Positions 1 to 7,498 of a stretch of 11,013 nucleotides of DNA are shown here, one piece after another. The notes beneath the pieces are model-generated. The model saw nothing but the letters and a program-made list of their open reading frames with translations, ran no database searches and was not told where the DNA came from. A program made the translations under genes and the position numbers. Within the stretch, counting starts at the first letter, position 1, and each line of letters starts with the position of its first letter. This stretch comes from an uncultured Prevotella sp. Lineage in GTDB: Bacteria > Bacteroidota > Bacteroidia > Bacteroidales > Bacteroidaceae. The stretch spans positions 1 through 11,013 of the forward strand of contig CAKPRX010000073.1 in the NCBI GenBank assembly GCA_934183135.1. Reading direction: 5' to 3'.

Positions 1-506
1 CTCTTGGTCTTTGTGTTATAGGCCGTCATAATGCAAGGAGACTTGTATGGCATCTCGCTCTGCATGCCAAACTCGAGCCAAGGCCTGCCATCGGGCGCAG
101 CTTGCAGCACCCTGCTCTTGTAGCAGATAGTTCTTCTCCTATATTTAGTGTCGAATTGAAAGTTGCAAGTGAATACACAGTTGGCCTGCTCGTCTGCGGG
201 TATGCCTTTTACAAAATCTTGCCATTCTATGGTGTGTAGCCACATCTTGTCTGATAGTTCCTGTGGCATGTCCCGGCATAGCTCTGCGATATCTGTGGCA
301 TGTTCCCTGTAGGGGAAACCCGAAGAGCCTTGTCCCGGAGCGGCATGGTAACATACCATCCTGTGATAGTCAAAGATATAGTATTCTGCGCAGAACATGG
401 GCGATATGTTGTCTATCATTTTCACGTACGGCTCTATCCGCTTGTAGTCTTCCTCGGTTATGCCGGTTACCTGTATGCGCGTTAATAAGTCTGGTGGAAT
501 ATTCAT
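1..506 (-). CDS. LuxR-family regulator, module 1 copy (C-terminus outside window)
   Basis: An open frame of 168 codons runs from the ATG at 506 to the left edge without a stop. It is a paralogue of the complete regulator at 2584-3336. Both start MNIPPDLL, and 21 of the first 24 residues are identical. Later shared blocks are IFDYH (about residues 44-48), QDFV and APDGR-W. Between these the two proteins have diverged strongly. The DNA-binding domain of the paralogue begins at its residue 190, so this protein's expected HTH lies beyond the window and its presence is inferred. It starts 16 bp after the stop of the 192-aa gene, so it is probably the last visible gene of the module 1 transcript. 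A role as transcription factor rests only on the paralogue. Confidence 0.8.
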   Translation of the reverse strand, partial: MNIPPDLLTRIQVTGITEEDYKRIEPYVKMIDNISPMFCAEYYIFDYHRMVCYHAAPGQGSSGFPYREHATDIAELCRDMPQELSDKMWLHTIEWQDFVKGIPADEQANCVFTCNFQFDTKYRRRTICYKSRVLQAAPDGRPWLEFGMQSEMPYKSPCIMTAYNTKTK

Positions 507-522
507 GCTGGTCTGTTATAAG

Positions 523-1101
523 TTAAAAATCAATATGCACACATTCGTAGACTTCGGATGCCATCTCGTACTCTTCTGGCTCAGTGTTCTTGAATGTCGA
601 AACACTACCGGGGTACCTGTAAAACCATCTTTCTATTCTCGTCCAGTCTTTATCGGTTAGTCTATAGTCTTTTTTGACTTGTTGTCCGTCCCATATACTG
701 AAGTCTACCCAATGGATAGCTTGCCTTTTTCTGTCATGGGTAGCTACTATTACCAGTCTGCAGCCCTTGTATTTAGCATACGCTTCAGCGTGTATCACTT
801 TTTCAACGAATTTAATAATTCGGGGATTGCATTGTATGTCGTAGCTGTAATAGTTGTAGAAATAGCCCAGTTCGTTTTTTCTTTCCCATCCTCTCTCCGT
901 AAACTTGTAGTGGTATGTGCGCCAACAGCCCAGATAATAGCGTAAGTCCCTTAGCCGCTGAAGAGGGTTTGTGGCAGTTACTATAATAATGAATAATGAC
1001 CCTATTACATAAATAGGCGACAGAATATAAAAGAGTATTATAACCCCCATAGCACGACCATTTTTCCCCCACCATGCTCTTTGTACATAAAGTTCAGTCA
1101 T
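523..1101 (-). CDS. 192-aa single-pass membrane protein, unknown function
   Basis: I do not recognise this family. The N-terminus has a short charged stretch, then one strong hydrophobic segment (about residues 18-42), then a soluble tail of about 150 residues rich in Tyr, Trp and charged residues. The tail probably faces the cytoplasm, since Lys/Arg are near the N-terminal flank, but topology is not certain. The gene lies 45 bp after the 51-aa gene and 16 bp before the LuxR gene, so co-transcription is likely. It belongs to a block present in module 1 and exactly missing from module 2. Base composition is AT-rich like its neighbours and unlike the GC-rich genes further right. Confidence 0.75.
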   Translation of the reverse strand: MTELYVQRAWWGKNGRAMGVIILFYILSPIYVIGSLFIIIVTATNPLQRLRDLRYYLGCWRTYHYKFTERGWERKNELGYFYNYYSYDIQCNPRIIKFVEKVIHAEAYAKYKGCRLVIVATHDRKRQAIHWVDFSIWDGQQVKKDYRLTDKDWTRIERWFYRYPGSVSTFKNTEPEEYEMASEVYECVHIDF

Positions 1102-1146
1102 AAGTTTTGTCTTTCTTGTTTGTAATATGCACTTAGTTGCTGGCGC

Positions 1147-1302
1147 TTATATGTAAGGGCCGTCTTTAAAGTAAGAGGGTGCTAAGAACGCCGCTATGGC
1201 CATTATAACATTGAGACCAAATTCGGCTGTGACATGCAATGCCTTATAAATCCATTTTACGGTATGGTATATTGGATAAATGGGAGCTTTATTTTTACTC
1301 AT
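1147..1302 (-). CDS. 51-aa small protein with one possible membrane helix
   Basis: A 52-codon frame including the stop starts at the ATG at 1302 (MSKNKAPIYP) and ends TAA at 1147. Residues about 24-42 (HVTAEFGLNVIMAIAAFL) are moderately hydrophobic and could form one membrane helix, preceded by a basic N-terminus. The sequence before the ATG (ATATTTCAGCC) is identical to the leader directly before the LuxR gene of module 2. In module 1 this small gene has therefore taken the position, relative to the shared leader, that the regulator has in module 2. The 192-aa gene follows after 45 bp. Function is unknown. Its placement and its exact fit into the extra block support a real gene, but its short length keeps confidence moderate. 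Confidence 0.55.
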   Translation of the reverse strand: MSKNKAPIYPIYHTVKWIYKALHVTAEFGLNVIMAIAAFLAPSYFKDGPYI

Positions 1303-1425
1303 GGCTGAAATATATGTGTTTTATTGGTTGGTAGATAGGTAAGATGAGTGGGGCGGTTGGGGTGAGCCGCCCCGTACTCTTCATCTTGACAGGTAGAGAT
1401 AGTCATCAGCCTGTTACCATCTTAA
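1303..1425 (-). repeat. Intercistronic repeat block, module 1 copy
   Basis: This stretch between the DUF3828-like gene and the 51-aa gene is homologous to 3350-3462, between the secreted-protein gene and the LuxR gene of module 2. Shared landmarks in transcription order are TAATTAAGATG, TAACAGG, ACCTGTCAAGATGAAGAG or its GCCTGTC variant, a GC-rich hairpin, and ATATTTCAGCC just before the next gene. I see no promoter in it. Confidence 0.75.
1350..1373 (-). terminator. Conserved intercistronic hairpin, module 1
   Basis: GGGGCGG (1350-1356) pairs with CCGCCCC (1367-1373) across a 10-nt loop. On the transcribed strand no U-run follows, so a strong intrinsic terminator is unlikely. Attenuation, mRNA stabilisation or processing between the upstream exported-protein genes and the downstream genes is more plausible. 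Module 2 has an equivalent hairpin at 3390-3412. Confidence 0.4.
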
Positions 1426-1869
1426 TTATAGAATCTCTTTTACTTGATTGATTTTACCACCCTTTACGGTAACTCTTAGCTTTATACTGCGGATGTAGTA
1501 ACGGTTACGGTCATCTTTGGCGTTCCGTTTGTATGTCACAATATAGTTGTTGCCTACAGGTTTTACATCAAGAGTCTTAACCGACAATGTGTCTATGCCT
1601 GCATCATCTGTGGCATAGTCATAGTATATACCAGTTCCCCCGCGGTCGTCTTTGGTGTCCTTGCATATAGTCTCAGAGCAGTAAATCTTCAGCAGCGAAT
1701 CGCATTTGGCAAAAGAGGCCTTGAGATTCTTAATGCTATAGGCTACCGCATATTGGCGATAGAAGTCTCTGACTTTTTCCAGGTCATGGTCGTTGTTACC
1801 AGCCCACATTTTCATACAGCCTACTGATACGCATAGTATCATGGCCATTGTCATACATAGCTTTTTCAT
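1426..1869 (-). CDS. Exported DUF3828-like protein
   Basis: The 147-aa product begins with a likely signal peptide (MKKLCMTMAMILCVSVGC...WA), then a domain with FYRQYAVAY near the start, a conserved-looking KIYC, a D-Y-DAGIDTLSVKTLDV stretch and a final beta strand ending GKINQVKEIL. This order resembles the DUF3828 / NTF2-like family of small exported Bacteroidetes proteins of unknown function; the family assignment is from memory. The in-frame ATG at 1896 would overlap the stop of the preceding gene (ATGA) and add nine residues. I chose 1869 because it gives a clean signal peptide, but translational coupling from 1896 is possible. The gene is an extra of module 1: module 2 passes straight from the 143-aa gene to the intercistronic repeat. 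Confidence 0.7.
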   Translation of the reverse strand: MKKLCMTMAMILCVSVGCMKMWAGNNDHDLEKVRDFYRQYAVAYSIKNLKASFAKCDSLLKIYCSETICKDTKDDRGGTGIYYDYATDDAGIDTLSVKTLDVKPVGNNYIVTYKRNAKDDRNRYYIRSIKLRVTVKGGKINQVKEIL

Positions 1870-1892
1870 AATTGTTATTTTATGGTTGTTAA

Positions 1893-2324
1893 TCATTTGA
1901 AGGCGTCAGGGTAGTTCCAGGAAGGAAAGGCCATGTTGTCATTGCCAAATCTGATGAACCATGCCTTGCCAGACTTGTCAGATACGTACACCCTGGCTAT
2001 GGGGAAAGAGCCATGGTTAGTCCCTGGTTTGCAATAGAGAGTTACCTTATATTGCAAAAGTCCTAAATGGCTGCTTCGTTCCACATCTTTTTTATCATTG
2101 GTGTTGATTCCCCGGTTGAATGTGGTTATCTCAGACTTACCGCAATATCCGTAATTAGCATAGTACTTGCTAAACATCTTGTGCTTATAGACATTCAGGG
2201 CTATTTGGGTAAGCTGGGCGTTGCGCTGGCTCTCTCCCATAGTAGAGAACATCTGGGCGCAGGCCGACTGGCTGCCTCCTATCAGTAGGAGTGCTGCGAT
2301 GAGGGTTTGAAAAGAGTGTCTCAT
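1893..2324 (-). CDS. Secreted 143-aa protein, module 1 paralogue
   Basis: The protein has a signal peptide (MRHSFQTLIAALLLIGG...ACA, cleavage probably before Gln24) and a mature part of about 120 residues with FSKYY-NYGY-GK-EIT (about 51-67), VYVSDKSGKAW (112-122) and FGNDNM (126-131). By hand alignment without gaps it shares about 98 of 143 residues with the protein at 3463-3894. I do not recognise the family. It is probably periplasmic or surface-exposed; no lipobox is visible. It has its own promoter (2475-2506) and is the first gene of the module 1 transcript, followed by the DUF3828-like gene with an ATGA overlap or a short gap. Confidence 0.8.
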   Translation of the reverse strand: MRHSFQTLIAALLLIGGSQSACAQMFSTMGESQRNAQLTQIALNVYKHKMFSKYYANYGYCGKSEITTFNRGINTNDKKDVERSSHLGLLQYKVTLYCKPGTNHGSFPIARVYVSDKSGKAWFIRFGNDNMAFPSWNYPDAFK

Positions 2325-2474
2325 AATGATATGTCTGATTAGAATGTTTGCGAATGATGTCTCCTCCGGCGATCCTCATGTAGATGGGTTCATGGAGGTT
2401 GTCGCACAGGGCGATGATGGCGGTCTTTTCTGTTTCTACTATTGCTTCGTTAATGGTAAAGATGGTATATGGCA

Positions 2475-2506
2475 CAAAGTTAGTATATAGAAGTGAGCCG
2501 CGCAAA
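2475..2506 (-). promoter_or_regulatory. Bacteroidetes-type promoter of module 1
   Basis: The -33 box TTTG lies at 2506-2503 and the -7 box TAACTTTG at 2482-2475, with a 20-nt spacer. This matches the Bacteroidetes primary sigma consensus (TTTG, 19-21 nt, TAnnTTTG). The transcript would start near 2468. Confidence 0.8.
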
Positions 2507-2515
2507 TAAATGCTA

Positions 2516-2531
2516 TCGTGGAAAACCATGG
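2516..2531. promoter_or_regulatory. Degenerate dyad upstream of module 1 promoter
   Basis: TCGTGG-AAAA-CCATGG is an imperfect version of the perfect dyad at 4086-4101. It sits at the same distance (about 10 bp) upstream of the -33 box. A candidate operator; the binding protein is unknown, and the LuxR-type regulators of the array are the obvious candidates. Confidence 0.4.
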
Positions 2532-2583
2532 AAATGAAAATATTTATCGGTCTTTGTATCTGTGCGAGCATTGGATTACGCCT

Positions 2584-3336
2584 TTACAACAGGTGGTAAG
2601 TCATGGCATAGCCTACGGCCTCCATCATGTTGGTTACATTCAGTTTCTTGAATAGTGCTCTGCGGTGTGTCTCTATTGTGCTCTCTGTCCGGTTTAGTAT
2701 GTCGGCTATCTCCTTAGTCATCAGTCCCTGAGCTGCCAGGTTCAGTATTTCCCTCTCCTTGTCACTTAGCTGGGGTAGGGAAGTCTTAACCCACTGCTCT
2801 GAGTCCATGTCCAAAGTCCATTGTTCGTGTGTCTTTATATTCTGAGCCACTAATAGGTTGCCTTTTTTCAATGGCGACAGGCTCTGAATACCCAATCCTA
2901 ACCATGTGCGGCCGTCAGGAGCTATTTCGAGTGCGATGCTTCTATAGCTTATAGCAGTACTCTTCCCATGTATCTGTACTGGGAAGTTGCGGAAGAAGAC
3001 GATGTTTTTGCGCTCGCAGGCAGGCTGGTTTCTTACAAAGTCTTGCCTGCATGCTGCTAATGTCAACGTTTTATTGCTCTCATTCTCGGTCATATAGCTA
3101 TATATGTAATCCCCGCCTTTATTCATGGCTTCCTCTCTGTCCATGTTCAGTAGTCCGTAATTTTTTGTCGCTATATGATGGATGCGCATCTTGTGGTAAT
3201 CGAAGATGGAGAAGGCTTGGAAAAACAGGGGCGATATGCTGTCTACCATATTCGTAAACTGTCCAATCCGCTCGTAGTCTTCCTCTGTTATGCCTGTAGC
3301 CTGTATGCGCGCTAATAAGTCTGGTGGAATGTTCAT
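2584..3336 (-). CDS. LuxR/NarL-type transcriptional regulator, module 2
   Basis: The 250-aa protein has a C-terminal LuxR-type helix-turn-helix from residue 190: LSDKEREIL, then LAAQGLMTKEIAD-L, then TIETHR and KKLNV. These match the conserved positions of the GerE/NarL fold. The N-terminal about 180 residues have no receiver-type phosphorylation pattern that I can see and may be a PAS-like or other sensing domain. It starts MNIPPDLL like its partial paralogue at 1-506. It follows the secreted 143-aa gene by 126 nt, across a hairpin and without a visible promoter of its own, so it is probably the second gene of the module 2 transcript. The target is unknown; the duplicated dyads upstream of both module promoters are candidates. 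Confidence 0.9.
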   Translation of the reverse strand: MNIPPDLLARIQATGITEEDYERIGQFTNMVDSISPLFFQAFSIFDYHKMRIHHIATKNYGLLNMDREEAMNKGGDYIYSYMTENESNKTLTLAACRQDFVRNQPACERKNIVFFRNFPVQIHGKSTAISYRSIALEIAPDGRTWLGLGIQSLSPLKKGNLLVAQNIKTHEQWTLDMDSEQWVKTSLPQLSDKEREILNLAAQGLMTKEIADILNRTESTIETHRRALFKKLNVTNMMEAVGYAMTYHLL

Positions 3337-3349
3337 GCTGGTCTGTTAT

Positions 3350-3462
3350 GGCTGAAATATATGTATTTTATGAGTAGGCGGATGAGCGGGGGGCGGTGGA
3401 AAAGCCGTCCCCTGCTCTTCATCTTGACAGGCTGAATAGTTGCCGGCCTGTTATCATCTTAA
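3350..3462 (-). repeat. Intercistronic repeat block, module 2 copy
   Basis: Homologous to 1303-1425. In transcription order it starts right after the stop of the 143-aa gene (TAATTAAGATG) and ends ATATTTCAGCC-AT, 13 nt before the LuxR start. It holds the hairpin at 3390-3412. A small inverted pair ACAGGC/GCCTGT also lies just after the stop codon. Confidence 0.75.
3390..3412 (-). terminator. Conserved intercistronic hairpin, module 2
   Basis: GGGGCGG (3390-3396) pairs with CCG-CCCC (3405-3412) with one bulged base and an 8-nt loop. Arm and loop sequences differ from the module 1 hairpin but the fold is kept. No U-run follows on the transcribed strand, so partial attenuation or RNA stability are likelier roles than full termination. 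Confidence 0.4.
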
Positions 3463-3894
3463 TTACTTGAAAGGTTCAGGACAGTTCCAATAAGAGTAGA
3501 CCATGTTATCATTGCCAAACATAATAGACCAAGCCTTACCAGACTTGTCAGATACGTATACTTTGGCTATGGTGAAAGACCCCCATTTGGCTCCAGGCTT
3601 GCTATAGAGCTTTACTATATATTGTAATTTTCCTAAGATTTTGTCTCGTTCTATACTTGCTTTGTCATTCTCATCTACACCTTTGTTGAATGGCGTTATT
3701 TCGTACTTGCCAGAATAGCCATAATTGGAATAGTACTTGCTAAATTTTTTTGCCTTATACACTTTTAAGGCTATCTGAGTAAGTTTGGCATTACGCTCAT
3801 TTTCGCTCATAGTTGAGAATGTCTGGGCACGGGCCGACTGGTTGCTTCCTATCAGTAGGAGTGCTGCGATGATGGTTTGAAAAGAGTTTCTCAT
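3463..3894 (-). CDS. Secreted 143-aa protein, module 2 paralogue
   Basis: It has the same length and layout as the protein at 1893-2324, about 69% identical by hand count. The signal peptide is MRNSFQTIIAALLLIG...ARA with cleavage probably before Gln24. Conserved blocks are FSKYY-NYGY-GK-EIT, VYVSDKSGKAW and FGNDNM. Differences cluster around residues 79-86, 102-104 and 132-138, and there are no gaps. It is the first gene after the promoter at 4045-4076, followed by the LuxR gene. Function is unknown. Confidence 0.8.
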   Translation of the reverse strand: MRNSFQTIIAALLLIGSNQSARAQTFSTMSENERNAKLTQIALKVYKAKKFSKYYSNYGYSGKYEITPFNKGVDENDKASIERDKILGKLQYIVKLYSKPGAKWGSFTIAKVYVSDKSGKAWSIMFGNDNMVYSYWNCPEPFK

Positions 3895-4044
3895 AATGAT
3901 ATGTCTGATTAGAATGTTGACGAATGATATTTTCTCTGGAGATGCTCATATAGGCGGGCCTTATGTAGGTTGTCGCCCTGGGCGATTAGGAGGTCTTTGC
4001 TGTTTCTGTTATTGCTTCGTTAATGGTAAAGATGGTATATGGTG

Positions 4045-4076
4045 CAAAGATAGCCTATAAAAATGAGCCGTGCAAA
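4045..4076 (-). promoter_or_regulatory. Bacteroidetes-type promoter of module 2
   Basis: TTTG at 4076-4073, a 20-nt spacer and TATCTTTG at 4052-4045 form a consensus promoter. The transcript would start near 4038, giving a leader of about 144 nt. Confidence 0.8.
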
Positions 4077-4085
4077 TAAATCTCA

Positions 4086-4101
4086 TCATGGAAAACCATG
4101 A
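4086..4101. promoter_or_regulatory. Perfect dyad upstream of module 2 promoter
   Basis: TCATGG-AAAA-CCATGA has 6-bp perfect arms and lies 9 bp upstream of the -33 box, a usual place for an activator site. The module 1 promoter has a weaker version at the same place. Confidence 0.5.
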
Positions 4102-4176
4102 AAATGAAAATTACTGTGGGAGTGGATGAGCCTGTTAGGGAGTGGCACGGGTTAAGATGGTATCGGTGGGCCGGCA

Positions 4177-4228
4177 GCTGGCGAGGGCCAGCCAGGGCAT
4201 AGCCACCGCCGTGGCGAATGGCTATGCC
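4177..4228 (-). terminator. Two hairpins downstream of kduD
   Basis: GGCATAGCC (4196-4204) pairs perfectly with GGCTATGCC (4220-4228) over a 15-nt loop. A second hairpin, GCTGGC/GCCAGC with a GAGG loop, spans 4177-4192. They follow the kduD stop by about 30 nt. No U-run follows, so a canonical intrinsic terminator is not shown, but the position fits the 3' end of the kdu transcript. Confidence 0.45.
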
Positions 4229-5069: not shown

Positions 5070-5990
5070 TTATTTTAAGTCTGTAGTCTTGATTACGTTC
5101 ATGTCACCATAGTCCAGGTTCTCGCCCGCCATGCCCCATACGAAGGTATAGTTGCTGGTGCCAGCCGCGCAGTGTATGGACCACTGCGGCGCGATGATGG
5201 CCTGCTCGTTGCTCATCCACACTACGCGCGTCTCCTGGGGCTCGCCCATGATGTGGGCTATGCGCTGCCCCTCGGCCACGTTGAAGTACAGGTAGGTCTC
5301 CATTCGCCGTAGGTGGGTGTGGGCCGGCATGGTGTTCCACACGCTTCCCGTCTTCAGCTCGGTTATGCCCATCTGCAGCTGGCAGGTACGCACGCCCGCC
5401 ACGCCGTCGATGATGAGCTGGTGTATCACCCGGTCGTTGCTGCCGGCCAGGTTGCCCGCCTTGATATTGTTGGCCTCGCTCAGCGTAACCCGCTTGGTGG
5501 GATAGGCGGCATGGGCCGTGGCGCTGTTCATGTAGAACTTGGCCGGGTTGTGGGCATCGCGGCTGCTCAGGGTTATCTCGTTGGGGTGCCTGTCGGTGGC
5601 GCGGCCCACATACAGGCCCTCCATCATGCCCAGGGTGTATGCGCGTCCGTCTACGGTTACCGTGCCCGGGCCGCCTATGTTGATGATGCCTATCTCGCGG
5701 TTCTCTAACAGCGTGCGGGCCTTGAGCGGCTCTATCGGCGCGAGCCTGAGCGGCTCAGTGGTGGGCATGGCTCCGCCGATGAGAAACCGGTCGTACATGG
5801 AGTATGTCCAGCACACCTCGCCAGGGGCGAATACGCGCTCTATCAGGAACTCCTTACGCAGCCGCTGGGTGTCGTAAGTCTTGGCGTCGGCCGGATGGCT
5901 GCTCCAGCGCACCTCGTAGTAGGTCTTGTCCTGGGCCATGGCGCAGATGCCTGCGGCCAGGGCCGCTACGGTCATTAGTGTTTTCTTCAT
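5070..5990 (-). CDS. kduI: 5-dehydro-4-deoxy-D-glucuronate isomerase with signal peptide
   Basis: This 306-aa protein matches E. coli KduI over its full length after an N-terminal extension. Shared stretches include YDTQRLRKEFL, INIGGPGTVTVDG, NTMPAHTH-RRME-Y-YFN, PQETR and SIH. The metal ligands correspond to His224, His226, Glu231 and His273. The enzyme isomerises 5-keto-4-deoxyuronate, from unsaturated uronates of pectin or glycosaminoglycans, to 3-deoxy-D-glycero-2,5-hexodiulosonate. Residues 1-20 (MKKTLMTVAALAAGICAMAQ) form a textbook signal peptide, with AMA followed by Gln, leaving a mature enzyme of normal size. No other Met exists before residue 62, so the extension cannot be a start-site error. 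KduI is normally cytoplasmic, so this copy is probably periplasmic. It lies 15 bp after the EIIC gene and 6 bp before kduD. Confidence 0.92.
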   Translation of the reverse strand: MKKTLMTVAALAAGICAMAQDKTYYEVRWSSHPADAKTYDTQRLRKEFLIERVFAPGEVCWTYSMYDRFLIGGAMPTTEPLRLAPIEPLKARTLLENREIGIINIGGPGTVTVDGRAYTLGMMEGLYVGRATDRHPNEITLSSRDAHNPAKFYMNSATAHAAYPTKRVTLSEANNIKAGNLAGSNDRVIHQLIIDGVAGVRTCQLQMGITELKTGSVWNTMPAHTHLRRMETYLYFNVAEGQRIAHIMGEPQETRVVWMSNEQAIIAPQWSIHCAAGTSNYTFVWGMAGENLDYGDMNVIKTTDLK

Positions 5991-7467: not shown

Positions 7468-7498
7468 CAAAGGTAGTGCAAACCGCAGACAGTACAAA
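7468..7498 (-). promoter_or_regulatory. Promoter of the EIIC-kduI-kduD operon
   Basis: TTTG at 7498-7495, a 19-nt spacer and TACCTTTG at 7475-7468. The transcript would start near 7461, about 70 nt before the EIIC start codon. No other consensus promoter is seen before kduI or kduD. Confidence 0.75.

Follow-up and report, generated by a model that had tools for sequence, protein, structure and literature searches.

Two paralogous expression units, each joining a putatively exported 143-residue protein to a PAS-like LuxR-type regulator, in an uncultured Prevotella

In order to characterize a duplicated locus of an uncultured Prevotella sp. (GenBank assembly GCA_934183135.1, contig CAKPRX010000073.1), we analysed a window of 11,013 nucleotides (nt), which is the whole stretch of DNA considered here. 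Within positions 1–4200 two paralogous units each carry a gene for a putatively exported protein of 143 amino acids (aa) and a gene for a LuxR-type regulator. All genes of interest lie on the minus strand, and both units have the order dyad, promoter, leader, 143-aa protein (SecA or SecB), stem-loop spacer and regulator (reg1 or reg2). Unit 2 alone contains three additional open reading frames (ORFs) of 156, 51 and 192 aa between secB and reg2; orf156 follows secB and precedes the spacer, and orf51 and orf192 separate the spacer from reg2. The features are as follows.

4087–4100, minus strand: dyad 1, CATGG TTTT CCATG, presumed operator (pattern match; also retained in locus L001)
4045–4076, minus strand: promoter 1, TTTG-N20-TAnnTTTG (pattern match)
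3895–4041, minus strand: leader of unit 1 (predicted transcription start; comparison with leader 2)
3463–3894, minus strand: secA, putatively exported 143-aa protein (ORF; relatives; signal-peptide-like start in sequence)
3337–3462, minus strand: spacer with predicted stem-loops, unit 1 (folding)
2584–3336, minus strand: reg1, 250-aa PAS-like LuxR regulator (GerE helix-turn-helix; match to PDB 3clo)
2517–2530, minus strand: dyad 2, upstream of promoter 2 (pattern match)
2475–2506, minus strand: promoter 2, TTTG-N20-TAnnTTTG (pattern match)
2325–2471, minus strand: leader of unit 2 (comparison with leader 1)
1893–2324, minus strand: secB, putatively exported 143-aa protein (ORF; 95% identical to relative P0003)
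1426–1896, minus strand: orf156, putatively exported protein whose start overlaps the secB stop (ORF; relatives; family profile)
1303–1425, minus strand: spacer with predicted stem-loops, unit 2 (BLASTN repeat; folding)
1147–1302, minus strand: orf51, small membrane-like protein (ORF; without Pfam match)
523–1101, minus strand: orf192, with a hydrophobic stretch near its start (ORF; without Pfam match)
1–506, minus strand: reg2, PAS-like LuxR regulator cut by the window edge (168 codons; full-length relative P0013)

Self-BLASTN of positions 1–4200 aligned 3459–4111 with 1889–2541 at 77.4% identity (654 columns, expectation value (E) 7e-146), the unit 1 spacer (3348–3465) with the unit 2 spacer (1301–1428) at 75.8%, and 3187–3349 with 357–519 at 80.4%, the last match taking in the start of reg1 and the 13 nt preceding it. 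This repeat is far beyond chance. Leader (125/146 identical positions) and promoter/dyad (57/70) are more conserved between the units than the coding sequence of the 143-aa protein (320/432). SecA and SecB are 69% identical without gaps, and their nonsynonymous divergence (NG86 dN 0.20) is far below the synonymous divergence (dS 1.09; dN/dS about 0.19), suggesting purifying selection on the protein. An earlier reading made from the sequence alone had described duplicated modules sharing promoter, dyad, leader, a 143-aa protein of about 69% gapless identity, a hairpin and a LuxR-type regulator, and self-BLASTN and the element scans bear out this description. Its claim that whole expression units, rather than just genes, were duplicated and retained is likewise supported by the repeat and by divergence under protein-level constraint. 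That reading was right in counting two modules, though their gene content is not identical, since unit 2 holds three extra ORFs and reg2 is cut by the window edge.

The promoter pattern TTTG-N19..21-TAnnTTTG, which we take to be of the Bacteroidota type, occurs on the minus strand at 4076–4045 and 2506–2475, with three sites across the whole window against a chance mean of 0.09. The dyad pattern CRTGGnnnnCCATG, composed after both sites had been seen, is found within the window only at 4087–4100 and 2517–2530 (chance mean 0.07), and the distance from dyad to promoter is equal in both units. Both spacers fold into predicted stem-loops, and both partners of one base pair differ between the units, in a comparison of two sequences only; a simple scan for minus-strand terminators found none at the spacers. 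As separate observations, the third promoter-pattern match (7468–7498) lies upstream of the genes for an EIIC-GAT permease, kduI and kduD, and at 2185–2571 an alternative reading frame stays open through the unit 2 leader and on into secB, the counterpart of this stretch in leader 1 having two indels and a stop.

The signal-peptide-like starts of the 143-aa proteins suggest that they are exported. Export is thus the part of the earlier description of a secreted protein that stands; release from the cell is not implied by such a start. No Pfam or NCBIfam family matched the 143-aa family above cut-off, and the SecA model (predicted local distance difference test score 74) consists of helices and then a sheet; its matches to cystatin-like and YpeB/YpmB-like folds are weak. 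A first profile search with this family returned 4 rows. A wider search at E≤10 gave 18, and two of these exceed 0.01, P0049 (E 0.014) and P0050 (E 0.03); P0050 was nevertheless included in profile A9, as its alignment spans most of its length. One 140-aa relative, P0004, represents 803 sequences and is accompanied by short or altered versions (P0005, P0037, P0040, P0044 and P0046–P0048) that reflect either decay or assembly breaks.

Reg1 has a GerE helix-turn-helix (HTH; PF00196, 64.8 bits against a cut-off of 23.5), and the HTH of reg2 is seen through P0013, a full-length relative of 260 aa that matches at 97.6% over 168 aa. The two regulators are only 43% identical to each other. No Pfam match to a receiver domain was obtained for reg1 at E≤1, and the NCBIfam rows match the HTH part; the assignment of reg1 as a NarL/FixJ response regulator was rejected for want of an N-terminal receiver match. 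A role as an acyl-homoserine-lactone receptor of the LuxR kind was also rejected, as no autoinducer-binding Pfam family matched at E≤1, and Foldseek comparisons with SdiA and RhlR gave template modelling (TM) scores below 0.31. The Pfam scan found no kinase family among the main ORFs of the window, in agreement with the earlier statement that no histidine kinase is near.

The nearest solved structure to reg1 is PDB 3clo from B. thetaiotaomicron, an entry whose title gives no function. Reg1 resembles it in the C-terminal LuxR HTH (sequence match at residues 121–244, E 2e-12) and, by Foldseek, over almost the full chain (E 7e-11, 256 columns), but the TM-scores are just 0.37–0.40 with a root-mean-square deviation of 16–17, which points to another domain arrangement or an uncertain model. 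Foldseek matched the regulator model to 3clo and VqmA, with middling model confidence and with VIA-align mostly over the HTH. Both of these proteins contain PAS domains; no PAS family of Pfam matched the regulator. From these models the regulators appear to be orphan LuxR-type proteins with a PAS-like N-terminal domain. The sequence-only reading was correct as to the LuxR type, here without a receiver domain, while the N-terminal domain that it could not recognise looks PAS-like and nearest to 3clo.

A relative of the locus is found in the closely related Prevotella sp. SUG78 (L001), whose KduI and KduD are 95% and 97% identical to the window proteins. There kduI and kduD are followed by a stretch at 11880–12449 in which a dyad/promoter (60/70 bases as in unit 1, 58/70 as in unit 2) adjoins the broken 3' part, about one half, of a regulator resembling reg2; this regulator match contains two internal stops, and asnS comes next. 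No 143-aa match was found in the SUG78 genome. This arrangement makes it more likely that SUG78 lost the array between a first promoter and a last regulator than that the site was never filled. The earlier suggestion that further modules may lie to the left of the window looks unlikely, because asnS follows the regulator remnant in SUG78. The gene asnS was found at none of the 33 other KduI loci. In another genome, G347, the 143-aa relative directly precedes asnS and is itself cut by the contig end.

We determined how often the two partners occur together elsewhere in Prevotella. Wider relatives of the regulator, defined by an N-terminal profile match plus a LuxR HTH, are present in 51 of 398 genomes, and we read 29 of their loci (L043–L071). 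These regulators share both defining traits with reg1 and reg2, but the reg1/reg2 type forms a separate clade (support 100/100, with a long-branch warning). No 143-aa relative lies within 1.5 kb of the regulator gene at any of the 29 loci, whereas 14 have, in place of the 143-aa protein, an outer-membrane carboxypeptidase-regulatory-type gene within that distance. As an observation in its own right, the similarity of this gene across the 14 loci makes it a candidate target of the regulator family. The close 143-aa profile matched 3 of the 398 genomes, one match being regarded as chance, and the wider profile matched 7, namely G166, five distant genomes and G347, the last of which is outside the regulator-positive 51. 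Among all ORFs ≥50 aa in the stretches read, none at these seven loci is a PAS-LuxR gene; the loci are not independent, as several are cut by contig ends, G166 spans 1.7 kb only, and L078 and L080 have a common neighbourhood.

The sequence-only reading had proposed a general pair of secreted factor and regulator, and had named a family occurring mostly without a LuxR-type neighbour as the outcome that would speak against it. The neighbours of the 143-aa family, now mapped in Prevotella, come near that outcome, and the proposal as a general rule does not hold. Because neither the 29 regulator loci nor the seven 143-aa loci show the pairing, it looks specific to a small lineage, as an invention of that lineage. 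LuxR-family regulators of Porphyromonas gingivalis have been studied; a literature search by listings found no paper on an exported-protein/PAS-LuxR pairing of this kind.

Relatives of orf156 were found in 7 of 249 Prevotella genomes, two of which (L106 and L107) have a nearly identical region. A profile from ten relatives, built without orf156, recovers orf156 with E 7.8e-24 (nominal database of one million). In three of the genomes the relatives stand in tandem, three each in G126 and G025 and two in G013. A relative in G076 (L104) shares its open frame with a detached stretch directly before it. Over 51 aa this stretch is 71% identical to the C-terminal tip of an Rhs protein encoded next to it; the Rhs core of that protein scores above cut-off, and its match to the amidase Tae4 is sub-threshold (E 0.008). 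None of the seven loci contains a 143-aa relative. Two further observations concern these neighbourhoods: at L104 5730–12371 several Rhs-type pieces with differing C-terminal ends alternate with small exported proteins, and at L105 3910–6683 an orf156 relative overlaps the end of a small TonB_C-domain protein by 4 bases, behind a larger TonB_C protein. Among the other unit 2 ORFs, orf51 and orf192 are without Pfam match, and two weak matches of orf192 in the 249 genomes are regarded as chance.

For the distant 143-aa relatives, the one in G091 (L077) lies 30 nt after an ORF of 451 aa, the end of which carries an HxH...S..D stretch that we read as JAB-like. The other distant loci have DUF4377, WG-repeat, AbiEii-type, TPR and DUF4919 proteins nearby, with no clear toxin tip. 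Pairing with an effector elsewhere is seen for the orf156 family in one of seven genomes (L104) and for the 143-aa family at motif level only (L077).

We tentatively interpret the locus as a duplicated, autoregulated poly-immunity array, a reading that is possible though short of probable. Each unit would be transcribed from its own promoter as one transcript, and the PAS-like LuxR regulator at its end would bind the dyad, some 50 nt ahead of the predicted start, and activate its own unit. The PAS-like domain may sense a cue. The exported proteins (SecA; SecB and Orf156) would accumulate in the periplasm and there neutralise toxin domains from rival bacteria. Autoregulation is favoured because the dyads occur only at the two unit promoters, and immunity because orf156 relatives are arranged in tandem, one of them behind an Rhs tip, and a 143-aa relative follows the JAB-like ORF. 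We put the reading no higher because its case comes from one orf156 genome and one motif.

Published systems offer partial likenesses. PMC3482391 describes poly-immunity loci and lists a Tox-JAB-1 of Bacteroidetes whose partner immunity protein carries a signal peptide and a lipobox. PMC12247911 and PMC10470768 deal with orphan immunity genes in gut Bacteroidales. Such loci resemble the array in having tandem diverged small genes with no adjoining effector, and one window family (orf156) has a relative behind an Rhs toxin tip; the window differs in its signal-peptide-like starts, in a regulator per unit and in the lack of a named immunity family. According to the relevant part of PMC9484751, the tandem esaG immunity genes of Staphylococcus aureus are paralogues that lose copies by deletion, which the probable loss in SUG78 would fit. 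They belong to another phylum and another toxin type, and no paired regulators are mentioned in that part.

Several results weigh against immunity. Its main weakness, as we see it, is that the case is drawn from distant relatives, in few genomes, at loci without the regulator: a PAS-LuxR gene is lacking at all seven orf156-relative loci as it is at the seven 143-aa loci, and the dyad is not evident at the other Prevotella PAS-LuxR loci. The array places three small exported proteins in tandem (SecA; SecB, Orf156), and Pfam and NCBIfam scans of its ORFs found no toxin gene and no effector family, nor any named immunity family above cut-off for SecA, SecB, Orf156 and the relatives scanned. An orf156 relative stands beside an Rhs tip in only one of the seven genomes, a toxin-like ORF accompanies a distant 143-aa relative at only one of five loci, and neither Pfam nor NCBIfam returned anything for the JAB-like motif of that ORF. 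In addition, immunity proteins are, with few exceptions, cytoplasmic according to PMC3482391.

Other explanations of the array appear less plausible still. We consider it rather unlikely that this is a self-contained system in which the exported protein acts or senses outside the cell and the paired regulator answers. Each unit does join one exported protein to one regulator, and P0003 (SecB-type) and P0012 (reg2-type) share a longest contig figure of 101,675 bases, so that they are probably linked in another genome. However, each partner has relatives at loci that lack the other, no release signal is evident from the sequence, and a cytoplasmic PAS-like regulator has no evident route to sense an exported protein. 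Alternatively, the exported protein could serve in the periplasm as a housekeeping or envelope-stress factor with a cystatin- or PepSY-like fold (e.g. a protease inhibitor or chaperone), locally autoregulated by the PAS-like LuxR protein, which we regard as rather unlikely. That the locus is a decaying lineage-specific cassette without present function is highly improbable: all that remains in SUG78 is a scar holding a broken half of the regulator, and the short or altered P0004 relatives would agree with decay, though assembly breaks could explain them, but the window copies have open frames, a dN/dS of about 0.19 and matching promoters and dyads.

Returning to the poly-immunity reading, an extension that we think improbable is an attack-inducible array in which every unit couples its exported immunity proteins with a PAS-like LuxR regulator of its own, the units answer different envelope-damage or rival cues, and the array grows by duplicating sensor-plus-shield units. 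If the exported proteins are immunity proteins, immunity would be regulated unit by unit. Two paralogous orphan regulators, whose presumed operators occupy corresponding positions upstream of their units, make dyad binding and self-activation directly testable without a ligand.

Apart from the array, KduI of the window (5070–5990) has a signal-peptide-like start. Its Prevotellaceae relatives mostly match from residue 1 and more distant ones from about residue 8–35 only, and export of KduI may be characteristic of the Prevotellaceae.

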